Of a stretch of DNA of 55,698 nt, positions 985 to 11,313 are shown in pieces. Origin of the DNA: a virus. Position numbers and translations under genes: made by a program. The notes under the pieces were generated by a model. It did no database searches and was not told the DNA's origin. It saw only the letters and a list, made by a program, of their open reading frames with translations. The DNA is taken from positions 1 through 55,698 of the IMG/VR virus record IMGVR_UViG_3300009706_000010; one strand, written 5' to 3'. The stretch's first letter is position 1. Every line of letters starts with the position of its first letter.

Positions 985-1560
985 ATGGCAGGCAGGAAGG
1001 GCAGATCAGGCCGGAAACGGATACCGGCTGAGGTGCATGCCGCTCGTGGGACATACCGGGCTGACCGCCACGGGCCGCTGCCTGACGGGGTGACGCCGGT
1101 CGTCATCAGGGGCGCCTTCTCTGGCGTCTCACGCAGGCCGTCAGAGGCTCCGTCGGTGGCAGATGTCGCGCCACCGATGCCTTATCTCACCGCTGAGGAC
1201 TGCCCGGCCATCCTGACGCCTGAGGGCGCGACGTTTTGGGAGAAGTTGATCACCGCCCGGCCCACCGAAAAAGTCTACGAGCAAGCGGTGGCGACTTACG
1301 TGCAGGCTTGGGAGACATGGCAGCGAGCGGTTCGGCTGATTCAGTCGGTGGGCGATGTCGTGCGGCAGGGCGAGGGGAAGACGGCGCGACCGATTCAGAA
1401 CCCGAACCATGCGATTCGCCGGGACGCAGAGAAGACAATGCTTGACGTTGGCCGGTTCCTTGGCTGGCAGTCGAAGGACGCGGCGAGTGACCGCAGAGGC
1501 GAGGAAGCACCGACGGTGACCCGGCTTGAGGCGTTCTTGGCGTCGAGAAATGGACGCTGA
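985..1560 (+). CDS. terS: Terminase small subunit (P27-like)
   Basis: The DNA-recognition subunit of the packaging motor, 191 residues. It has the basic N-terminus MAGRKGRSGRKR, then PYLTAEDCPAILTPEGATFWEKL, a central helical region (YEQAVATYVQAWETWQRA) and a C-terminal AEKTMLDVGRFLGW helix. This order is typical of the P27 family, which recognises the packaging site. The large subunit is about 5 kb downstream at 6597, an unusually wide separation. The start has GGAGAG roughly 12 bases upstream. Confidence 0.85.
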   Translation: MAGRKGRSGRKRIPAEVHAARGTYRADRHGPLPDGVTPVVIRGAFSGVSRRPSEAPSVADVAPPMPYLTAEDCPAILTPEGATFWEKLITARPTEKVYEQAVATYVQAWETWQRAVRLIQSVGDVVRQGEGKTARPIQNPNHAIRRDAEKTMLDVGRFLGWQSKDAASDRRGEEAPTVTRLEAFLASRNGR

Positions 1561-1925
1561 TGGCTTTCACACCTCCACTCACCGAGTCTAAGTGTTTCGC
1601 GGCGGCGGCTTCCGGATTGTCACAGGCGGCGAATGACGCTTCGGAAGCCGTTCGGAAGTTTGGCGAGGCATGTGGTCACGATCCTCAGCGGCGTTTACGT
1701 GGGGGTATCCCTGAGGTAGCGGTAGCTGCTCTGCACGGCACTGAAGTCGTCGTTCCGGCTGCGGCGCTGGAGCCATTTGAGCGAATCCAGATATCACGAG
1801 CCAACCACAGGCGGCACGAGGTCAACAAGGCGGCTGAGCGGCGGAATCAGGAGGCGCCTCCGGTAATGCCGGAGGAGGCTCCGGCGCAAAACACCGGTGA
1901 TCGGCGAATCACCTTCGAGGAGTAG
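1560..1925 (+). CDS. Hypothetical protein with LHGxExVVP motif
   Basis: A 121-residue protein whose ATG overlaps the terminase small subunit stop by one base (TGATG). Its centre, VAALHGTEVVVPAAALEPF, resembles the C-terminal motif of this phage's own tape measure protein (VLHGREAVVPVDKAQEF), a motif frequent at the ends of tape measure proteins. The C-terminus GDRRITFEE is encoded by DNA that also supplies the SD (GAGGAGTA) for the next gene. The N-terminal half is predicted helical. Function unknown. Confidence 0.7.
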   Translation: MAFTPPLTESKCFAAAASGLSQAANDASEAVRKFGEACGHDPQRRLRGGIPEVAVAALHGTEVVVPAAALEPFERIQISRANHRRHEVNKAAERRNQEAPPVMPEEAPAQNTGDRRITFEE

Positions 1926-1927
1926 TG

Positions 1928-2548
1928 ATGGCAAAGCGAGCAGCGAAACCAGTGGCGCAACCGCTGTCGGACTTCCGCCCTTTGGCGGAGGGGAAAAACC
2001 CAAACAAGCACACACAGCAGGGCATGGGCCAGCTTGATTCGGCGATGTCTCGGCACGGGTTTACCACACCGATGACGGCGGCTGCCGACGGGGATATTCT
2101 GGACGGGAACGCCAGATTGGAGAAGGCAGGCGAGCGCTTCCCCGGCGTGGACCCGATCGTGATCGAGCATGACGGGACGCGACCGATTATCGCCGTTCGG
2201 ACGGATATCGCGTCAGCGGATGACCCGTTAGCGCGAGACATCATCGTGTCATCGAACCGGATCTCTGAGGCCAACCTTGATTACGATCTGGCGGTGCTTC
2301 ATGGGCTGGCGGCGGATGGGCTCGACTTGACACCGTATGAATTCCCGGCAGACCTCTTGGCGCCGGTGAGCTCGGGTTCTGGCTTCAGTCCGTCCGTTGA
2401 GCCCACTGTCGGCGGTTCGGGCGCTGTCACGGACGCTCAGGTGGCGGCGACCGGAGAGCGGCTGACAGCGCAGGTAACAACGGAGGCTCCGGCGATTCGT
2501 GAGGTCGTCTGTCCTCACTGTGGCAAGGACTTCGGCATCGAGGGGTGA
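1928..2548 (+). CDS. ParB-like nuclease-domain protein with zinc-finger tail
   Basis: A 206-residue ParB/sulfiredoxin-fold protein. The opening PLSDFRPLAEGKNPNKHTQQGMGQLDSAM and the DGDILDGNARLEKAGERFPG segment match the ParB N-terminal domain that binds or cleaves nucleotides and DNA. The last residues carry CPHCGKDF, half of a zinc ribbon. Phages often carry such proteins near terminase genes, sometimes with DNA-modification enzymes. The ATG at 1928 is preferred over a GTG one codon earlier because GAGGAG precedes it at good spacing. Confidence 0.75.
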   Translation: MAKRAAKPVAQPLSDFRPLAEGKNPNKHTQQGMGQLDSAMSRHGFTTPMTAAADGDILDGNARLEKAGERFPGVDPIVIEHDGTRPIIAVRTDIASADDPLARDIIVSSNRISEANLDYDLAVLHGLAADGLDLTPYEFPADLLAPVSSGSGFSPSVEPTVGGSGAVTDAQVAATGERLTAQVTTEAPAIREVVCPHCGKDFGIEG

Positions 2549-2550
2549 AT

Positions 2551-2769
2551 ATGGCTGGCGATAAGGACAAAACACCGGTGGTCCAGGCGCAGAATACGTG
2601 CAAGCACTGTTGGCATCTTCAGCGGGAGGTCCGGTCCACCTTTTCTGGGGTGGACAGCGAGGTATGCTGCCGGTGTGGGCTCTGGCGGCATCGGAAGTGG
2701 GTGCTGGCGAAAGATCCGAAGCACGGCCCGTTCGCAGCGGCGACCATCAAGAAATACGTGAAGGAATGA
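2551..2769 (+). CDS. Small zinc-ribbon protein
   Basis: A 72-residue protein with two CxxC pairs (CKHC near residue 17 and CCRC near residue 41), which predict a zinc ribbon. A GTG at 2545 overlapping the previous stop is an alternative start; the ATG at 2551 has GAGGGG at suitable spacing. It lies in the accessory block between the terminase genes. Function unknown. Confidence 0.65.
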   Translation: MAGDKDKTPVVQAQNTCKHCWHLQREVRSTFSGVDSEVCCRCGLWRHRKWVLAKDPKHGPFAAATIKKYVKE

Positions 2770-3161
2770 CCATCGCCACGAATACTCTTGCGCTCGGACT
2801 GGTGAGCACGTATGGCCGGGCGATTGCCACGGAGATTGCTACGGCGATTCTTGCAGCGACAAACGAGGAGCCGTTCGACCGCTTCGCCCGGCTGGTCGCA
2901 GCGATGCCGTTCCAAGTCGCGGTGACCATGCCGGATAATCCTCACTCCTACACCTTACGCCGGAAGTGGGATGACGATGCGGACTTCGTGTTCTGTGTCA
3001 ATTTCATCCGGTCGGATGGCTACAAGGCGCGGTTCGGGCGCTACGACTTCCCGCAACTGGACTGCGGTGAATTCTTCTATTGGACTATGTATGACGACAT
3101 CAAGGACACAGCTCTGTTCAATCGGAAGCCGCTGAGTCAGAAGGGAGTGCCGCGCCGGTGA
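2766..3161 (+). CDS. Hypothetical accessory protein
   Basis: A 131-residue soluble protein (MTIATNTLALGLVSTYG...) whose ATG overlaps the end of the zinc-ribbon gene. The middle is rich in aromatic and charged residues (RRKWDDDADFVFCVNFIRSDGY) and there is no obvious catalytic motif. It is translationally coupled to the glycosyltransferase-like gene downstream through a 4-base overlap, so it probably belongs to the same accessory operon. No family recognised. Confidence 0.6.
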   Translation: MTIATNTLALGLVSTYGRAIATEIATAILAATNEEPFDRFARLVAAMPFQVAVTMPDNPHSYTLRRKWDDDADFVFCVNFIRSDGYKARFGRYDFPQLDCGEFFYWTMYDDIKDTALFNRKPLSQKGVPRR

Positions 3162-3712
3162 CTCGAATTATTGTGACGACTATGCCGGACTCGCGGTTTA
3201 TTTCGTATCTGCTCGATCGGCTGCCGACACTGGAGGTCGTGGAGGACACGAAGCGGGATGCGTGGGATACCTACATGCGCTCACTAGAAGTGCAGGGCGA
3301 CGATCCAGCGATCCACATGGAGGACGATATTCTCCTGACTCGTGACTTTGCCGCGAAGGCGCAGGCCGTGATCGACAAACGCCCGGATTCGGTCATCCAG
3401 TTCTTCAGTATGCGCGGCAAGGACTTGACGGTAGGTTCGAGGTGGGACCGTCAGTTCGCCATGAATCAATGCACTTACCTGCCTGCCGGATACCCGGCGG
3501 CGTTCATGCCGTTCGCGGAGTCGTGGACCCGTCGTGCAGAGAATCCGTATGGCTACGATACGTGTTTCAACGACTGGCTGCGCTCTCGCCGTGAGCCGTA
3601 TTGGATCTCTGTCCCCTCGCTCGTTGAGCATCGCGTGGCTGTGAGCAGGATCGCGAGGTCGCGAAGCTCAAGGCGGCAGAGTAAGACGTTCACGGATCTT
3701 GACGAGGAGTAG
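3158..3712 (+). CDS. Glycosyltransferase-like protein
   Basis: A 184-residue protein beginning at a GTG that overlaps the previous stop. The segment AIHMEDDILLTRDF resembles the acidic metal/nucleotide-sugar motif (ExDD) of small glycosyltransferases, and the C-terminal VPSLVEHRVAVSR...SKTF resembles the end seen in phage-encoded members. The target could be modified DNA bases, virion protein or host glycan; the sequence does not decide. It shares an operon with oxygenase-, methyltransferase- and PP-loop-type genes. The C-terminal LDEE codons double as the SD for the next gene. Confidence 0.6.
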   Translation: MTRIIVTTMPDSRFISYLLDRLPTLEVVEDTKRDAWDTYMRSLEVQGDDPAIHMEDDILLTRDFAAKAQAVIDKRPDSVIQFFSMRGKDLTVGSRWDRQFAMNQCTYLPAGYPAAFMPFAESWTRRAENPYGYDTCFNDWLRSRREPYWISVPSLVEHRVAVSRIARSRSSRRQSKTFTDLDEE

Positions 3713-3713
3713 A

Positions 3714-4235
3714 ATGGCGACATTCAAGTGGAACACTCCGTTGTCCCATCAGCGGTCACAGCCGGTCCTTCGCTATCGCGACATCTCGTTACCGGACTCG
3801 ATCGGGCTTTACCCGGAGATGTTGGAGCAGATGTTCCCGTCGGCGAATCACTCGTTGAAAACGTGGGGTAGGACTCCCGGCGTCAAGGAAAACGATCCTC
3901 ACTGGATTGGGGTCCGGAAGCAGACACCGTTGCACACGGACAAGGCATACCCTCGCTACACGCACCAGATCATGGTCAACGTCGATCCGGGTTTCTGCTT
4001 GCGCGGTGTGTCGCTGGCTGAGATTCAGTTGAAGCGGGGCCGGTATTTCGTGCTGGACACGCATAGCCCTCACCAGTTATTCGCCGGAGGAAATTGGCCG
4101 GCTCCACAGTGGTATCTGGCACTGTCGCTGGACACCTTCGTGGACGACGCACCGGACGCTGACGTTATCCACGCGCTGCTCGGCTACGCTGCGACCTTCA
4201 AGTTCGATGACGTTCACCCGATGCCGCTCACGTAG
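3714..4235 (+). CDS. Putative 2OG-Fe(II) oxygenase / cupin-fold protein
   Basis: A 173-residue protein. An H-x-D pair (PLHTDKAY, His74 and Asp76) and a distal histidine in VLDTHSPHQLF (His117 or His120), about 43 residues later and following a predicted beta strand, fit the facial triad of 2-oxoglutarate/Fe(II) oxygenases. An arginine for 2-oxoglutarate is not obvious, so the assignment is tentative. Such enzymes can hydroxylate bases or small molecules. It lies between the glycosyltransferase-like and methyltransferase genes. The start has GAGGAG upstream. Confidence 0.5.
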   Translation: MATFKWNTPLSHQRSQPVLRYRDISLPDSIGLYPEMLEQMFPSANHSLKTWGRTPGVKENDPHWIGVRKQTPLHTDKAYPRYTHQIMVNVDPGFCLRGVSLAEIQLKRGRYFVLDTHSPHQLFAGGNWPAPQWYLALSLDTFVDDAPDADVIHALLGYAATFKFDDVHPMPLT

Positions 4236-4241
4236 GGCGCC

Positions 4242-4793
4242 ATGGGCAGAGTCTCGTATCTTCGCGACATCCGCCGAAAGCTCGGGACGGTTGGCCGCGT
4301 GGCAGAGATCGGTGTGCTGCGCGGTCGCTTCGCTGCCTCCCTCCTCGCTGAGCTTCGGCCACGGGAACTAATCCTCGTGGACCCATGGCGGCAGATGGAT
4401 CACACCTATTCTTCGTCTGCCTCCGCTTGGGACTTCCGGCATGATTACGTTCAGAAGCGGTTCGAAGGCGACAAGCGTGTTCGGATACTTCGGGCTACCT
4501 CCCTTGAAGCGGCGCCGCTCATCATGGACGGCTCACTCGATCTGGTCTACATCGATGCTGACCATCGCGAGGAGTCGGTTTTGGCAGACCTGATCGCGTG
4601 GGCGCCGAAGGTCAGAGACGGTGGGTTCATCGCCGGTCACGACTTCACGCCGGATGATCCTCGAACTCGCGAGGTCGTGTCGGCTGTGCGGCGGTTCTTC
4701 GGCCCGGACTTCGAGCGGATCGTGTCGCCTCTGGAGCGTGAGGGCACCGGAGCCCGTCACATGCCTCGCTCCTACTTCCTGAGGGTGGAATAG
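4242..4793 (+). CDS. Class I SAM-dependent methyltransferase
   Basis: A 183-residue Rossmann-fold methyltransferase of the Methyltransf_24/FkbM-like type. Motif I is VAEIGVLRGRFAASLL, the acidic end of strand 2 is LILVDPW, and the later strand with DLVYIDADHREE followed by VRDGGFIAGHDF is characteristic. This family mostly methylates sugars or small molecules rather than DNA bases, and no DPPY-type motif is present. The neighbouring glycosyltransferase- and oxygenase-like genes suggest a common modification pathway. Confidence 0.8.
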   Translation: MGRVSYLRDIRRKLGTVGRVAEIGVLRGRFAASLLAELRPRELILVDPWRQMDHTYSSSASAWDFRHDYVQKRFEGDKRVRILRATSLEAAPLIMDGSLDLVYIDADHREESVLADLIAWAPKVRDGGFIAGHDFTPDDPRTREVVSAVRRFFGPDFERIVSPLEREGTGARHMPRSYFLRVE

Positions 4794-5929
4794 TGCCTCC
4801 GGCGTCTGCGAAGATCTACCTTCCGGAGAACGTGCTGGAGGCGGCGCTGGACCGGATTCGTTGGGTCTATGACCACTTCGAGTATGTCGATGTGTCCTTC
4901 TCGGGCGGCAAGGACAGCACGGTTGTCCTGAACCTCGCCCTGCAAGTCGCGGAGGAGAAGGGGCGTTTGCCGGTCCCGGTCGTGTTCATCGATCAAGAGG
5001 CGGAATGGGCCACGGTGATTGAATACATCCGCTCGGTGATGTCAGATCCACGCGTCGATTGCCAATGGCTTCAGGTGCCGATCCGGCTTTTCAACGCGAC
5101 CTCGACGGCTCACCCGTGGCTTCATTGCTGGAATCCGGAGGAGGAAGTGGAGTGGATTCGCCCGAAGGAAGCGGACTCGATTCACGAGAACGTCTACGGG
5201 ACTGACCGATTCGTGAAGCTGTTCGAAGCCTACGAGTATCACCACCGGCCCGATGTTCCAGTGGCATCGCTGACCGGCGTGAGGGCGGAGGAGAGCCCGG
5301 CCCGGCGTCTCGGGCTGACGGTCTACGAGACGTTCAAAGGCGTGACGTGGGGCTCGGTGAAGAACAAGGGCGTTGACCACTACTCCTTCCATCCGCTCTA
5401 TGATTGGCGCACCTCGGACATCTGGAAGGCGATTCACGACCATTCGTGGGCCTACACCAAACTGTATGACTGGCAATATCAGTATGGGACTCCGCTTCGT
5501 GAGATGAGGGTGTCGAACGTCCACCACGAGACGGCTGTCAAGACGCTGTTTCATCTTCAGGAGATCGAGCCGGAGACGTGGAATAGAATCACGAAGCGGC
5601 TGCAAGGGACGAACACGGCGGCAATGCTGGCGGAGAACTTCATGTCGCCGTCGAAGCTTCCGCCGATGTTCACGGACTGGCGCGACTACCGAAACCATCT
5701 GCTGAAGAACCTGATTCCGGGTGAGAGCGATCGGGCCTACTACCGGAAGACCTTCGCAGCCTACGATGCCCGTTACGCCGGTGCGAAGCCTACCACGCTG
5801 AAATCGCTGGTGTCCACGCAGATTTCGGTGCTACTGGTGAATGACAGAGAGGGGACGAAGTTGAGCACATTCCGCGCAAACAATGGCGTCGAAGCGAAGG
5901 GGCTTCGGCAGGCTCGGGTGAAGTCGTGA
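4793..5929 (+). CDS. PAPS-reductase-family PP-loop enzyme (IbrA-like)
   Basis: A 378-residue ATP-pyrophosphatase-fold protein with the PP-loop SFSGGKDS at residues 35-42 and the long C-terminal extension typical of IbrA-like proteins (DUF3440-type). It is directly followed, with a 4-base GTGA overlap, by a ParB-domain protein, the IbrA-IbrB arrangement known from enterobacterial and phage genomes. Relatives such as DndC activate substrates by adenylation for sulfur transfer; whether this one handles sulfur is not shown. The GTG start overlaps the methyltransferase stop by one base. Confidence 0.82.
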   Translation: MPPASAKIYLPENVLEAALDRIRWVYDHFEYVDVSFSGGKDSTVVLNLALQVAEEKGRLPVPVVFIDQEAEWATVIEYIRSVMSDPRVDCQWLQVPIRLFNATSTAHPWLHCWNPEEEVEWIRPKEADSIHENVYGTDRFVKLFEAYEYHHRPDVPVASLTGVRAEESPARRLGLTVYETFKGVTWGSVKNKGVDHYSFHPLYDWRTSDIWKAIHDHSWAYTKLYDWQYQYGTPLREMRVSNVHHETAVKTLFHLQEIEPETWNRITKRLQGTNTAAMLAENFMSPSKLPPMFTDWRDYRNHLLKNLIPGESDRAYYRKTFAAYDARYAGAKPTTLKSLVSTQISVLLVNDREGTKLSTFRANNGVEAKGLRQARVKS

Positions 5930-6600
5930 CCTCGCCCTCTGTTCCGTCAGAGCTATCACATGGGCTCAGGGCATTCATCCATGGTGCGTATGAACGCTTG
6001 GACGCAATGAACGCTATTCGCGAGATATTGCACGACTTGTCGCCGAACGCTTCCTCGCCGGTCGATCTGGTGCGATGGATTCCGATCGAGGGCATCGAGG
6101 CGAACGACTACAATCCGAATGCCGTGGCTCAGGTGGAGATGGGCCTATTGCAGAAAAGCATCGAGCATGACGGCTACACGCAGCCTCTTGTTACCATCTT
6201 CGATGCAGAGCGGGGCAAGTTCATCATCGTGGACGGCTTCCACCGGTATTTCGTCGGGAAGAACAGCGAGACGATTCGCGGCAGCGTGAATGGTCGGCTG
6301 CCCTGCGTCGTCATCGAGAAGGACATCAACGATCGCATGGCAAGCACGGTGCGGCATAACCGCGCCCGGGGCAAGCACTCGATTGGCGGTATGGCGTCGA
6401 TGGTGTTCGCGATGCTGGAAAACGGATGGACTGATGCGGAGATCTGCAACGAGCTTGGCATGGAGCCGGAGGAGGTGCTGCGGCTGAAGCACATAACGGG
6501 CTTCTCGCGGCTGTTCGAGAACGCGGAGTATAGCCGGGCATGGGTCACGAAGACGCAGACCCGTGTGCGTCTCGCAGCGGAGGCAGGCGGCGACAAGTGA
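5926..6600 (+). CDS. ParB-domain protein (IbrB-like)
   Basis: A 224-residue partner of the PP-loop enzyme. Residues about 48-130 form a ParB nuclease-like domain (VRWIPIEGIEANDYNPNAV, then KFIIVDGFHRYFVG and the conserved VRHNRARG), followed by a helix-turn-helix-like segment (WTDAEICNELGMEPEEVLRL). The product probably works with the upstream enzyme. Its TGA overlaps the GTG start of terminase large subunit, so this accessory cassette is translationally coupled to packaging. Confidence 0.82.
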   Translation: MTSPSVPSELSHGLRAFIHGAYERLDAMNAIREILHDLSPNASSPVDLVRWIPIEGIEANDYNPNAVAQVEMGLLQKSIEHDGYTQPLVTIFDAERGKFIIVDGFHRYFVGKNSETIRGSVNGRLPCVVIEKDINDRMASTVRHNRARGKHSIGGMASMVFAMLENGWTDAEICNELGMEPEEVLRLKHITGFSRLFENAEYSRAWVTKTQTRVRLAAEAGGDK

Positions 6601-8561
6601 CAACGAAGCGCCCGGCGACCAAACGGAAGACTGCGACGAAGCGGAAGCGCCCGGCGGCACCTGGGGCCAAGCGCCCGGCGCTGATCGGCCCGACCTCGAA
6701 AGACCCGGTGACGACGTATGCCCGGGATGTGGGAGCAGGTAAGATTCTGGCCGGGCGCATGGTGCGGCTGGCCTGCGCTCGTCACCTTGACGACCTGAAG
6801 CGGCAGACGACGGACAAGAGTTTTCGGTGGCGCTTCAGCGCGGAACGGGCGGCGCTCTGCACGAAATTCTTCCGGGACTTCCTCACCCTCGATGACGGTT
6901 CGCCGTTCATTCTCATGAACTGGACGAATTTCATCCTTGGCTCGCTCGAAGGTTGGGTGGACGGGGACAATAACCAGCGCTTCACGACCTCCTACACTGA
7001 GACATCGAAGGGCAGCGCGAAATCTCCCACGGCTGCGGGTTACGGGCTCTATGGCTTGGTTGGCAAGGATGAGTTCAGCGCTGAGGTTTATGCACTCGGC
7101 GTCGATGGAAATCAGGCCGGATACCTCTTCAAGTTCGCGAAACGCATGGCCGATCGATCGGATGCCCTGATGAGCGTTCTGGATGTCGGCGAGTATCAGA
7201 TATCGTGGGTTAATCGGGGCTCGTTTTTCAAACCGCTTTCAGCGGAAGGCCGGTCACTGGACAACAAGCGACCTTACCTCGCGATCGTGGACGAGCTTCA
7301 CGAGCACCCAACGTCGGTCATCCCTGAGAAGATGCGGCTCGGCTTCAAGGGCCGGAAGAATGCGCTCCTGTTCGAGATCACGAATGCAGGATTCGACAAG
7401 ACAAGCGTGTGCTGGGAGCACCACGACTACACGGTGAGGGTGCTCGAAAAGACTGTTACCGGCGCAGCGGCGGAGCGCTGGTTCGGCTACATCTGCCACC
7501 TTGACCCGTGCGAGGAACATCGGCTGGACGGACACACATCGCCTGTCGATGGCTGTGTAGACTGCGACGACTGGACGAACCCGAACTGCTGGCTAAAGGT
7601 GCAGCCTGCGCTGGATGTCACCATCTCCACGGAACAGCTTCAGGCAGTCGTGGACGAAGCGCGGGACCGCCCGGCGACACAGTCGCGGACTCGGCGCTTG
7701 TCGTTCTGCACTTGGACGCAGGGCCACACGGTCTGGATTCCCTACGACCGGTGGGACCGCTGTCAAGTTCCGGAAGTGCTGACTGAGAACCGCGATCGGG
7801 CCTGTGCAATCGGCTTCGATATGAGCGAGAAACTCGACCTAACGGCAGGCGTCGTGGCAATCCGGGTGGATGATGACGAGGACGCGGAGCCGGAGACGGT
7901 AGAGTTGACGGAAGTCGTCGGCGAGGAGAAGGTGACGCGGATTCTGGATCTGAATTTCTGCATCGAGCTTGTGCCGTTCTTCTGGATTCCGGAGGACACG
8001 GCAAAGGAGCGGGAGAAGTCGGAGCATGTTCCGTTTTCGCTCTGGCGCGACATCGGTGCGATGCGCTTCACTCCCGGGCCGGTCATCGATCACGATCTGA
8101 TCTATCAGCAGGTCATCAAGGAAATCGTTCCGGCCTACCGTCCGCAGCGCGTCGGCTACGATCCGCACAATGCCACTCAATTCGCGGTGGCGCTGCGGGA
8201 CAAGGGGAAGCAGGAGATCGCAGAGGTCCGGCAGGGCCGGGCGATGTCGGAAACCTTCAAGCTGTTCGAAGCGCTCGTGCATCTGAAGCGCGTCCGGCAT
8301 GCGGGGAATCCGGTGCTCGGCTGGTGTCTGGCAAACGCGGAGCCGAAGACAGACCGTTACGAGAACGTGTGGGTAGAAAAGCCTAGCAAAACACGCCGAA
8401 TTGACGGCATAATCGCTACAGTTATCGCGCTCTCACAGCTTGTCCTCCTGCCTGCGAGGGTGCGGCGGAAGCGGCGTGAAGCGAGGGTCTTCACCCCGGG
8501 AGGCTTCAAGCCTCTTATCGGGCCGAAGGATGAACAGACGACGGCGGAGACACCATCATGA
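6597..8561 (+). CDS. terL: Terminase large subunit
   Basis: The packaging ATPase and nuclease, 654 residues from a GTG that overlaps the previous stop. The N-terminus is a very basic tract (KRPATKRKTATKRKRPA). The Walker A-like segment ETSKGSAKSPTAA is at about residues 135-147, and Walker B LAIVDELHEHP with Asp232-Glu233 follows. The C-terminal RNase H-like nuclease shows IGFDMSEKLDLTA and VGYDPHNATQFA. This is the Terminase_1 type found with HK97-like heads. The next gene starts at an ATGA overlap. Confidence 0.95.
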   Translation: MTTKRPATKRKTATKRKRPAAPGAKRPALIGPTSKDPVTTYARDVGAGKILAGRMVRLACARHLDDLKRQTTDKSFRWRFSAERAALCTKFFRDFLTLDDGSPFILMNWTNFILGSLEGWVDGDNNQRFTTSYTETSKGSAKSPTAAGYGLYGLVGKDEFSAEVYALGVDGNQAGYLFKFAKRMADRSDALMSVLDVGEYQISWVNRGSFFKPLSAEGRSLDNKRPYLAIVDELHEHPTSVIPEKMRLGFKGRKNALLFEITNAGFDKTSVCWEHHDYTVRVLEKTVTGAAAERWFGYICHLDPCEEHRLDGHTSPVDGCVDCDDWTNPNCWLKVQPALDVTISTEQLQAVVDEARDRPATQSRTRRLSFCTWTQGHTVWIPYDRWDRCQVPEVLTENRDRACAIGFDMSEKLDLTAGVVAIRVDDDEDAEPETVELTEVVGEEKVTRILDLNFCIELVPFFWIPEDTAKEREKSEHVPFSLWRDIGAMRFTPGPVIDHDLIYQQVIKEIVPAYRPQRVGYDPHNATQFAVALRDKGKQEIAEVRQGRAMSETFKLFEALVHLKRVRHAGNPVLGWCLANAEPKTDRYENVWVEKPSKTRRIDGIIATVIALSQLVLLPARVRRKRREARVFTPGGFKPLIGPKDEQTTAETPS

Positions 8562-10141: not shown

Positions 10142-11266
10142 ATGATCAACGAATTCAAGTCTTTCCTTGGAAGCGGCCTGTGGTCGGTAGAGTCTCGGGC
10201 GCTTCAGTCGCTCGTCAACCGTGCTGAAAACGTCACCGCACAGGAGCTTGAGGCGGCGTTTTCCGCCTTCAGTGAAGCGACCTCGCGAAAGCCTGCGCTG
10301 AGCATGGTTGGCGATGTCGCGGTGATTGGCATGTCCGGCCCTATCACTTACCGGGAAACATGGATGTCGATGTTCTTCGGCGGTGCCTCCATCGAGAGCA
10401 TGCAGAACCAGTTTCGTATGGCGCTCGCGGATGAGGATGTGAAAGCGATCGTCTTCCGCTGCGATACGCCGGGCGGGACCGTGGAGATGGTTCCGGAATT
10501 CGCTGATGAAATTTTCGCCGCTAGGGGCGTGAAGCCGATCGTTGCGGTGGCCGACACTATGATCTGCTCTGCCGGGATCTGGCTCGCGGCGCAGGCTGAT
10601 CAGATTTGGGTGTCTTCGTCGTCGCTGGTCGGCTCGATTGGCGTGTTCATGGAGCACGAGGACTTGAGCGGCATGTTGGAGCAGGCCGGAGTCAAGATCA
10701 CCACGATCTCCTACGGCGAGCACAAGACAGACGGTTCCCAATGGCTGCCGCTGGCTGATGAGGCTCAGAAGGGGTTTCAGGCCGATGTCAACCAGATGGG
10801 CCGGGAGTTCGATGGAGCCATGGCCCGTGGCCGGGGCGTGAGCACGAAAGTCGTCGCTGACACCTTCGGGCAGGGGAAGGTCTTCCGTGGCCGGGCGGTG
10901 ATTTCCGCTGGCTTGGCCGACAAGTTCGGGACGGCTGCCGTGATGATGAAGCGAGTCACGAAGGTCCGGGCGGCGGGGCCGGGGCTGGCTCTTGAGGCGG
11001 CTGTCACTACTCCTGTCCCTGCGGCGGCTTCGGTTCTCGCTACCATCCCGAAGTGCACAACCTGTGCGACTGGATGCGACTGCCCTGGCGCAGCCTGTAA
11101 TCCGGGCTGCGAGACATGCGGCGCGGAATGCCCGTGCTTTATCACCGAACTACAAGCTGACAACAGTGAGTCAGACGCGGAAGCGGAAGCGCTCGCGACT
11201 GGTGCGCGGCAGGCTGACGTTGACCTGACAGAATCCACGCTTGCGCTGATGAGCTCAATCGTGTAA
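10142..11266 (+). CDS. S49/SppA-type capsid maturation protease with Cys-rich tail
   Basis: A 374-residue prohead protease of the ClpP/crotonase fold. FRCDTPGGTV (about 106-114) builds the oxyanion region, Ser143 in MICSAGIWLAA is the likely nucleophile, and Lys195 in YGEHKTDG the likely general base. It should process scaffold or capsid N-termini. Residues 305-332 hold nine cysteines in 28 residues (pattern CxxCxxxCxC, then CxxxCxxCxxxCxC), an unusual metal-binding-like addition. An acidic stretch follows (SESDAEAEA). Portal lies upstream and the major capsid gene downstream. Confidence 0.9.
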   Translation: MINEFKSFLGSGLWSVESRALQSLVNRAENVTAQELEAAFSAFSEATSRKPALSMVGDVAVIGMSGPITYRETWMSMFFGGASIESMQNQFRMALADEDVKAIVFRCDTPGGTVEMVPEFADEIFAARGVKPIVAVADTMICSAGIWLAAQADQIWVSSSSLVGSIGVFMEHEDLSGMLEQAGVKITTISYGEHKTDGSQWLPLADEAQKGFQADVNQMGREFDGAMARGRGVSTKVVADTFGQGKVFRGRAVISAGLADKFGTAAVMMKRVTKVRAAGPGLALEAAVTTPVPAAASVLATIPKCTTCATGCDCPGAACNPGCETCGAECPCFITELQADNSESDAEAEALATGARQADVDLTESTLALMSSIV

Positions 11267-11313
11267 TCTCTGTTTATTCGATTTCACTTTCCCACTTGGA
11301 GCGAAGCAGACAA

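Follow-up and report, generated by a model that had tools for sequence, protein, structure and literature searches.

We identified a gene cassette in a 55,698-nucleotide viral sequence (IMG/VR record IMGVR_UViG_3300009706_000010, positions 1 to 55,698; hereafter the window) that joins a constant core of ParB-domain and IbrA-like proteins to a variable module of a putative glycosyltransferase (GT) and a decorator enzyme. We put its role as a late, post-replicative DNA hypermodification cassette at about an even chance. In a wider form, which we hold more tentatively, it may be a widespread, undescribed system for DNA glyco-hypermodification in phages that are mostly uncultured, in which the ParB/IbrA core is coupled to the terminase and the identity of the sugar tag is switched, in serotype-like fashion, by exchange of the GT-decorator block.

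Exactly nine open reading frames (ORFs), at 1560-6600 on the + strand, separate terS from terL, the number given in the original prediction. In this phage, the cassette is bordered upstream by terS (985..1560, +), which is of the Terminase_4/P27 type (Pfam PF05119, 35.8 bits; cut-off 24.7). Its stop is overlapped by 1 nt by the start of orfA (1560..1925, +), a 121-aa protein with no family match and, by tblastn, no counterpart in other cassette loci. Downstream lies terL (6597..8561, +; TerL_ATPase 71.5 bits, TerL_nuclease 112.8 bits), for which a GTG start at 6597, overlapping the ParB2 stop by 4 nt, is more likely than the mechanical ATG at 6540. The stop/start junctions from terS to terL were all within -4 to +6 nt (10/10), and 8/10 overlapped by 1 or 4 nt. 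With ten such tight junctions, the predicted coupling of the cassette into the terminase operon stands at the sequence level. A second record, IMGVR_UViG_3300027844_000463, showed 99-100% protein identity across all terS–terL genes, and the window cassette is therefore no assembly chimera.

After orfA come ParB1 (1925..2548, +; phrog_498 3.3e-9, phrog_620 1.5e-6), with the C-terminal zinc-ribbon-like tail CPHCGKDFG, and a 74-aa zinc-ribbon-like protein recognised by its CxxC...CxxC sequence (2545..2769, +), with matches to NMD3 and Churchill zinc profiles that were weak and fell short of the cut-off. They are followed by a 'D' domain protein of an uncharacterised family (2766..3161, +; 50 relatives), GT (3158..3712, +; phrog_854 5.9e-7), which carries a GT-A-like EDD motif and belongs to the variable module, a putative Fe(II)/2-oxoglutarate oxygenase (OG; 3714..4235, +) in the decorator slot, and an optional class I SAM methyltransferase (MT; 4242..4793, +; Pfam Methyltransf_24 69.7 bits). 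The cassette closes with the IbrA-like PP-loop enzyme (4793..5929, +; phrog_2302 3.5e-83), in which PAPS_reduct (PF01507, 66.2 bits) precedes DUF3440 (PF11922, 37.8 bits), both over cut-off, and with the IbrB-like ParB2 (5926..6600, +; phrog_2159 1.5e-70), which has a ParB/Srx-type domain and a DGFHR motif. On these scores, the earlier calls of an IbrA-like enzyme and a methyltransferase are solid. So is ParB2, one of the two ParB-domain proteins predicted, the call for ParB1 being weaker. The glycosyltransferase-like protein was supported by its phrog_854 match and by weak Glyco_transf_25 matches in 4/45 relatives. The possible 2OG-Fe(II) oxygenase, which itself matched no Pfam family, was supported by fold and metal triad.

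Profile searches recovered the arrangement ParB1-D-GT-decorator-IbrA-ParB2 in ~80 viral loci, or 65 once redundant loci are set aside. Co-occurrence was counted in the 44 non-redundant loci with adequate flanks, where IbrA lay near GT in 43, ParB2 in 42 and a ParB1-type gene in 35; cassette neighbours were co-oriented in all 142 of 142 cases. The first 12 kb of the window had no megablast match among deposited phages. Among 50,697 deposited phages, GT matched Hendrix only (RefSeq and GenBank records) and OG matched none; relatives of IbrA were present in 215 deposited phage records. A scan of 84,980 species genomes returned 2 small MAG contigs with a match, and because only two peptide patterns were scanned, the near absence of the cassette from host genomes is a rough impression.

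IbrA/IbrB pairs in phages and prophages consist of the same two adjoining families (phrog_2302 and phrog_2159) as in the cassette, and the pair might act as regulators that co-activate prophage or late genes, with the GT and oxygenase genes as passengers. IbrA and IbrB both carry the annotation 'co-activator of prophage gene expression' in Streptococcus phage CHPC1148, where the pair is distant from the terminase. Directly before the terminase, as in the cassette, IbrA/ParB is also found in Mycobacterium phage Athena and Arthrobacter phage Laroye, but there GT and the decorator slot are lacking and the IbrAs are distant in the tree. In FCV-1, the pair is located after terL. We consider a regulatory role improbable, since passengers would not be kept as strictly as GT with IbrA, which flank the decorator slot in most loci. 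The catalytic PP-loop of IbrA is also intact, each position of SGGKDS being conserved at 97-100% in 71 relatives.

We examined the link to the terminase across the cassette records. TerL was detected in 42/50 records and lay downstream on the same strand, at 0.2-2.8 kb, in 38 of these 42; the count rises to 40/42 if two contigs are circular. In L027 and L029, TerL was 0.8-1.5 kb downstream of the cassette. The cassette-linked TerLs form three groups that BLAST cannot relate to one another. For the original prediction, cassette homologues scattered over loci unconnected with packaging would have counted against it; with TerL linked in 38/42 records, this check did not refute it. The common gene order is cassette-terS-terL, with a terS-like ORF between cassette and terL in the relatives inspected, and terS upstream of the cassette is a variant peculiar to this window. 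Because relatives keep terS beside terL, the separation of terS and terL was rejected as the key feature. The prediction is thus partly supported: the enzyme calls and the tie between a modification-type cassette and packaging held up well, and the terS–terL gap did not hold as a general feature.

The similarity of the cassette to Dnd phosphorothioation was then considered. The PP-loop enzyme DndC and the ParB-superfamily protein DndB are members of a DNA modification system (PMC10853773), a pairing that the cassette shares, and IbrA could be taken to insert sulfur. IbrA matched the PADLOC DndC profiles weakly (E about 6e-9), the match being limited to residues 15-98; against TIGR03183 (DndC), it scored 26.6 bits with a cut-off of 290.4, over residues 31-98 only. 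No cysteine was invariant in the 71 IbrA relatives (highest column 76%), which makes both PAPS-reductase and DndC chemistry unlikely. The score against TIGR02057 was 19 with a cut-off of 254, and, with the catalytic cysteine lacking, we discarded an auxiliary metabolic role in PAPS reduction. Moreover, no DndA, DndD or DndE gene was seen between terS and terL, where the cassette has a GT and an oxygenase instead. A Dnd-type sulfur modification is therefore very improbable.

We next turned to the variable module. In the 92 members of the GT family, D57 (97%), D134 (100%) and H158 (97%) were conserved along with an EDD/EED-type motif; further weak family matches were to Glycos_transf_2 and MGAT4. 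Sequence searches of the GT and OG profiles against solved structures gave nothing useful, and curated families recognised no cassette enzyme as a DNA-specific transferase. Sugar-related genes accompany the GT in several loci: its neighbour in both L022 and L024 is a nucleotide-sugar epimerase (Epimerase E=1.3e-44), the L026 cassette has a cytidylyltransferase (3e-15), and upstream in L037 lie a hexapeptide transferase and a gene of GT2 type.

The OG metal triad (H74-x-D76...H120) was identical in 52/52 relatives, and the candidate 2OG-binding residues R81 and R97 were found in 51/52 and 43/52, respectively. The AlphaFold2 model (pLDDT 91.8) is a double-stranded beta-helix (DSBH), and its best VIA-align match was proline 3-hydroxylase (Z 8.7, 3.8 A over 125 residues). 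Foldseek returned a cupin (E=1.2e-4) and AspH (4.2e-4). Cupins score nearly as high, so the function of OG cannot be read from the fold by itself; the triad and the modelled fold support the assignment as a putative oxygenase. OG was replaced by a GNAT or a methyltransferase in 13/62 loci, and 7 had no decorator. Relatives of the window MT were present in just 4 other loci. The decorator in L010, L040, L062 and L075 has 194-200 aa and a DNA-amino-methyltransferase-like layout, in which an [E/D]PPW-like motif, EPPW in L062 and L075 but diverged in L010 and L040, precedes a glycine-rich SAM-type motif; L007 has a similar DPPW protein between GT and OG. Pfam and PHROGs matches of these EPPW-type decorators were weak, with weak Methyltransf support in L040 and L010 only, so that the methyltransferase assignment depends on the motifs.

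In the base J pathway, a JBP oxygenase and a glucosyltransferase produce a glycosylated base. The cassette has a similar oxygenase-glycosyltransferase pair, but its OG is dispensable, and OG is therefore probably not the maker of the GT acceptor. A base-J-like scheme in which OG makes the hydroxyl for GT was rejected as a general scheme because of the loci where OG is replaced or the decorator is absent.

Comparison of related phages showed that near-identical backbones swap GT as one block with the gene after it, which encodes an oxygenase, acetyltransferase or methyltransferase. IbrA could be 94-95% identical between phages with GTs at 41-46% identity. Between L033 and L085, the nucleotide identity of ~0.9 dropped to 0.55 across GT and the greater part of OG, and between L053 and L006, OG was swapped for a GNAT with IbrA identity at 94%. 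This exchange resembles antigenic variation, and variable glycosylation would equally fit a virion protein or surface glycan. Together with the fact that GT, acetyltransferase, methyltransferase, oxygenase and sugar-nucleotide genes make up a usual glycan-building set, it brings in the main rival, also raised in the original prediction as altered glycans, in which the target of GT and decorator is a capsid or tail protein or the host surface. Action on structural proteins would then explain why the cassette stands at the head of the structural operon, and in the window the portal, S49 protease and capsid genes come directly next. We regard this rival as unlikely, since the constant partners of GT are IbrA and ParB2, not structural genes, and terS/terL adjoin the cassette in the great majority of loci. 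To our knowledge, PP-loop ATPases and ParB-fold proteins have no role in protein glycosylation.

The ParB and D proteins were also examined. PF02195 scored 17.8 bits on ParB2, under the cut-off of 26.3, and a Noc/ParB structure profile matched at 4.6e-4; no ParA adjoins the gene. The D family has the invariant motifs P-H-x-Y, Y-W-x-M and N-R and is fused to a SAM methyltransferase in L014, L015, L021 and L058; the model of D (pLDDT 88) had no convincing fold match (best Z 3.6). ParB-fold proteins can be nucleotide enzymes, as a weak match of ParB2 to SbnI (E=0.033) recalls, and every cassette enzyme could act on nucleotides. The substrate might thus be a free nucleotide or small molecule, such as a metabolite serving counter-defence or a modified nucleotide destined for incorporation, and not polymer DNA. 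We see only a slim chance of this, as the cassette lacks nucleotide kinase, thymidylate-synthase-like and polymerase genes and is linked to packaging, not replication genes. ParB-domain genes accompany CmoX, an experimentally shown phage cytosine modification (PMC12783734). Their frequent occurrence beside CmoX/CmoY cytosine carboxymethylation in Synechococcus phage S-B43 is like the cassette, but the Cx-SAM and AMP-forming ligase chemistry is unlike it (PMC12783734). Serratia phage eta has a ParB homologue and ordinary DNA (PMC3918226), so a ParB gene alone is no sign of modification.

We infer DNA as the substrate, and late expression, from the presence of ParB and PP-loop proteins and from where the cassette lies. 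Phage Mu Mom is a late, post-replicative DNA modification. Late timing and action on DNA awaiting packaging would be expected for the cassette too, and both have GNAT-type enzymes; unlike Mom, the cassette is multi-enzyme and would use sugar chemistry. In DNA hypermodification, the cassette would be co-transcribed with the packaging genes and act after replication, during packaging, as does the late mom function. The constant core would activate a DNA position, with IbrA possibly adenylating a target group using ATP at its PP-loop and the ParB-type proteins binding or passing on DNA and nucleotide. The variable module would then build or attach a sugar, with GT drawing on a nucleotide sugar. 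Trimming of the sugar would fall to the decorator, which may be a Fe/2OG hydroxylase, N-acetyltransferase or methyltransferase, single or combined. Swapping GT and decorator would alter the tag with the core unchanged, so that related phages may evade modification-specific host nucleases.

Two cultured Microbacterium phages (Rogerhendrixvirus), Hendrix and Leaf, open the cassette to laboratory testing. The right end of Hendrix carries the family GT, a second glucosyltransferase, a D-methyltransferase fusion, a GNAT and IbrA, continuing across the map ends to three ParB genes, a small ORF and terL. Leaf has two annotated glycosyltransferases, a GNAT, a D-domain methyltransferase, IbrA, three ParB genes and terL, and its gene 156 matched the GT family weakly (E=1e-4). 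Compared with the window cassette, both lack OG and have additional glycosyltransferases. The searchable literature gives gene-by-gene annotation only for this cassette, with no reported function. If our reading is true, a large DNA modification family would be added to phages known almost solely from metagenomes, and IbrA/ParB pairs would gain a testable biochemical function. Modification would be tied directly to the packaging operon, with a modular route to varied DNA chemistry that would be a natural counter to host nucleases targeting particular modified bases.

In the window, a 55,698-base record from an uncultured virus, terS (985-1560; Terminase_4) and terL (6597-8561; TerL_ATPase and TerL_nuclease) lie on the same strand as the ORFs between them. 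The original prediction was that nine genes separate the two and are coupled into the terminase operon. Exactly nine ORFs were counted, all on a single strand, and the ten terS-to-terL junctions all measured -4 to +6 nt, eight being stop/start overlaps of 1 or 4 nt, which confirms the coupling at the sequence level. The arrangement is real, because a second record, IMGVR_UViG_3300027844_000463, encodes these proteins with 99-100% identity. An HNH endonuclease gene (75-785) lies directly upstream of terS. Its product shares an N-terminal stretch with TerS (985-1095; about 57% likeness over 37 aa, GRxGRSGRK...), as if borrowed from it.

The IbrA-like PP-loop enzyme (4793-5929; PAPS_reduct and DUF3440) and the methyltransferase MT (4242-4793; Methyltransf_24) were assigned securely, as proposed. 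Of the two proposed ParB-domain proteins, ParB2 (5926-6600) is secure and ParB1 (1925-2548) gave a weaker ParB match. The putative glycosyltransferase GT (3158-3712) matches phrog_854. Among 45 of its relatives there were weak matches to Glyco_transf_25, Glycos_transf_2 and MGAT4, and the family (92 relatives) keeps an E-D-D-type motif (D57 97%) as well as D134 (100%) and H158 (97%). A family search with OG (3714-4235) itself gave no match. Since H74-x-D76...H120 was identical in 52 of 52 relatives and the AlphaFold2 model (pLDDT 91.8) formed a double-stranded beta-helix, OG is likely an Fe(II)/2-oxoglutarate oxygenase, still putative. The best structural matches were proline 3-hydroxylase, a nucleoside-antibiotic hydroxylase, AspH, ALKBH enzymes and cupins, the cupins scoring almost as high as the oxygenases. 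Protein D (2766-3161) belongs to an undescribed family with invariant P-H-x-Y, Y-W-x-M and N-R. Four loci (L014, L015, L021 and L058) encode D as a fusion with a SAM methyltransferase, and comparison of the D model with structures found no clear fold.

A GT alignment search of viral contigs found 91 relatives, of which 80 were kept. Profile scans showed the order ParB1-D-GT-decorator-(MT)-IbrA-ParB2 in most of these loci, the decorator being the gene slot between GT and IbrA; a few were rearranged. Removal of GTs more than 90% identical left 65 loci, 44 with enough flank. Among these 44 we found IbrA in 43, ParB2 in 42, ParB1 in 35, D in 29, OG in 26 and a GNAT acetyltransferase in 6, and all 142 counted neighbours shared the GT strand. 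GT relatives in species genomes were limited to two small MAG contigs among 84,980. In 50,697 deposited phages, GT was found in Microbacterium phage Hendrix only and OG in none. One enlarged, partly duplicated cassette (L087:6564-13093) has three GT-family genes, two ParB2, GNAT and MT, then terS-terL. Three tandem GT-family genes precede OG-IbrA-ParB2 in L057 (6340-13090 of a 74-kb record) and L056. A protein of about 285 aa, with no clear match in family searches, lies between decorator and IbrA in L040 (9112-9975) and L048 (4460-5308), whose IbrAs are sisters.

TerL (phrog_2) was detected in 42 of 50 cassette records, some of them near-duplicates so that the independent number is smaller, and was always on the cassette strand. 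It started 0.2-2.8 kb downstream of the cassette in 36 records and 0.8-1.5 kb downstream in two more, L027 and L029. In L009 and L020 it follows the cassette provided that the contig is circular. L040 and L057 break the pattern, TerL not being close downstream in L057. The TerLs formed three groups unconnectable by BLAST, and GTs were up to 64% identical between phages of different groups. The cassette thus moves between phage lineages yet keeps its place. The other loci inspected had a small ORF between cassette and terL, HTH-like in most and terS-like (Terminase_4 in L027); terS upstream of the cassette is a local variant in the window. In L026, a cytidylyltransferase-like enzyme (10878-11300; CTP_transf_like, 3e-15) is inserted between ParB2 and the terS-like ORF.

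Cultured phages were also compared. Athena and Laroye have a smaller ParB/IbrA set ahead of the terminase, whereas ParB-IbrA follows terL in FCV-1 and IbrA/B is distant from the terminase in CHPC1148. In Hendrix and Leaf, the right map end bears glycosyltransferase(s), GNAT, methyltransferase and IbrA, and the left end has three ParB genes, a small ORF and terL; Hendrix alone has a strong GT-family member, Leaf having one weak match. Hendrix gene 4 (L091:1994-2530), annotated 'Rnase E', occupies the position of the terS-like ORFs. Its Leaf counterpart is annotated 'DNA binding protein', and gene 4 is probably a mis-annotated terS-like DNA-binding protein.

Near-identical cassettes diverged in GT and the decorator slot alone. 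L033 and L085 share 95% (IbrA), 90% (ParB2) and 89% (ParB1) identity versus 41% for both GT and OG; nucleotide identity falls from about 0.9 to 0.55 across the GT-OG block and rises again at IbrA. The same held for L053/L006 (IbrA 94%, ParB2 93% versus GT 46%; OG in one, GNAT in the other), L062/L005 (IbrA 79% versus GT 44%; methyltransferase in place of OG) and L043/L051 (IbrA 94% versus GT 45%). This constant frame with an exchanged block is a pattern beyond the original prediction. The slot held OG in 42 loci and GNAT in 9; a further 4 had an [E/D]PPW-type methyltransferase-like protein there, and 7 had no gene in it. Small [E/D]PPW-like proteins in the GT-IbrA interval (L062:2552-3154, L075:3161-3745, L010:4916-5500, L040:8516-9115, L007:667-1221) show the motif, diverged in L010 (EVPW) and L040 (EPAW), then, at the C-terminus, a glycine-rich SAM-type motif; this order resembles that of permuted DNA amino-methyltransferases.

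The donor is very likely an activated sugar, because some cassettes contain an additional nucleotide-sugar epimerase (L022, L024) or the cytidylyltransferase (L026), and further glycan enzymes lie upstream in L037. Read most economically, the cassette would be a DNA hypermodification system that acts post-replicatively and belongs to the packaging operon; the chief rival of this reading, also possible, is virion-protein glycosylation. IbrA, using ATP, and its ParB-type partners would activate or present DNA, GT would attach a sugar, and the decorator would then trim it. Sulfur insertion or PAPS reduction by IbrA is unlikely, since it has no invariant cysteine and its DndC match is fragmentary. 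TilS-type enzymes adenylate a carbonyl, and IbrA may catalyse a similar reaction. ParB-domain genes accompany proven phage cytosine modification (PMC12783734), and DndC is accompanied by the ParB-superfamily DndB (PMC10853773).

Our literature search, incomplete in coverage, found no description of a GT-decorator-IbrA-ParB cassette. Iyer and colleagues reportedly may have predicted related PP-loop/ParB systems in 2013. We place the cassette with phage DNA modification islands, its chemistry being putative. DNA would be its substrate, modification would come late, and its role may be evasion.
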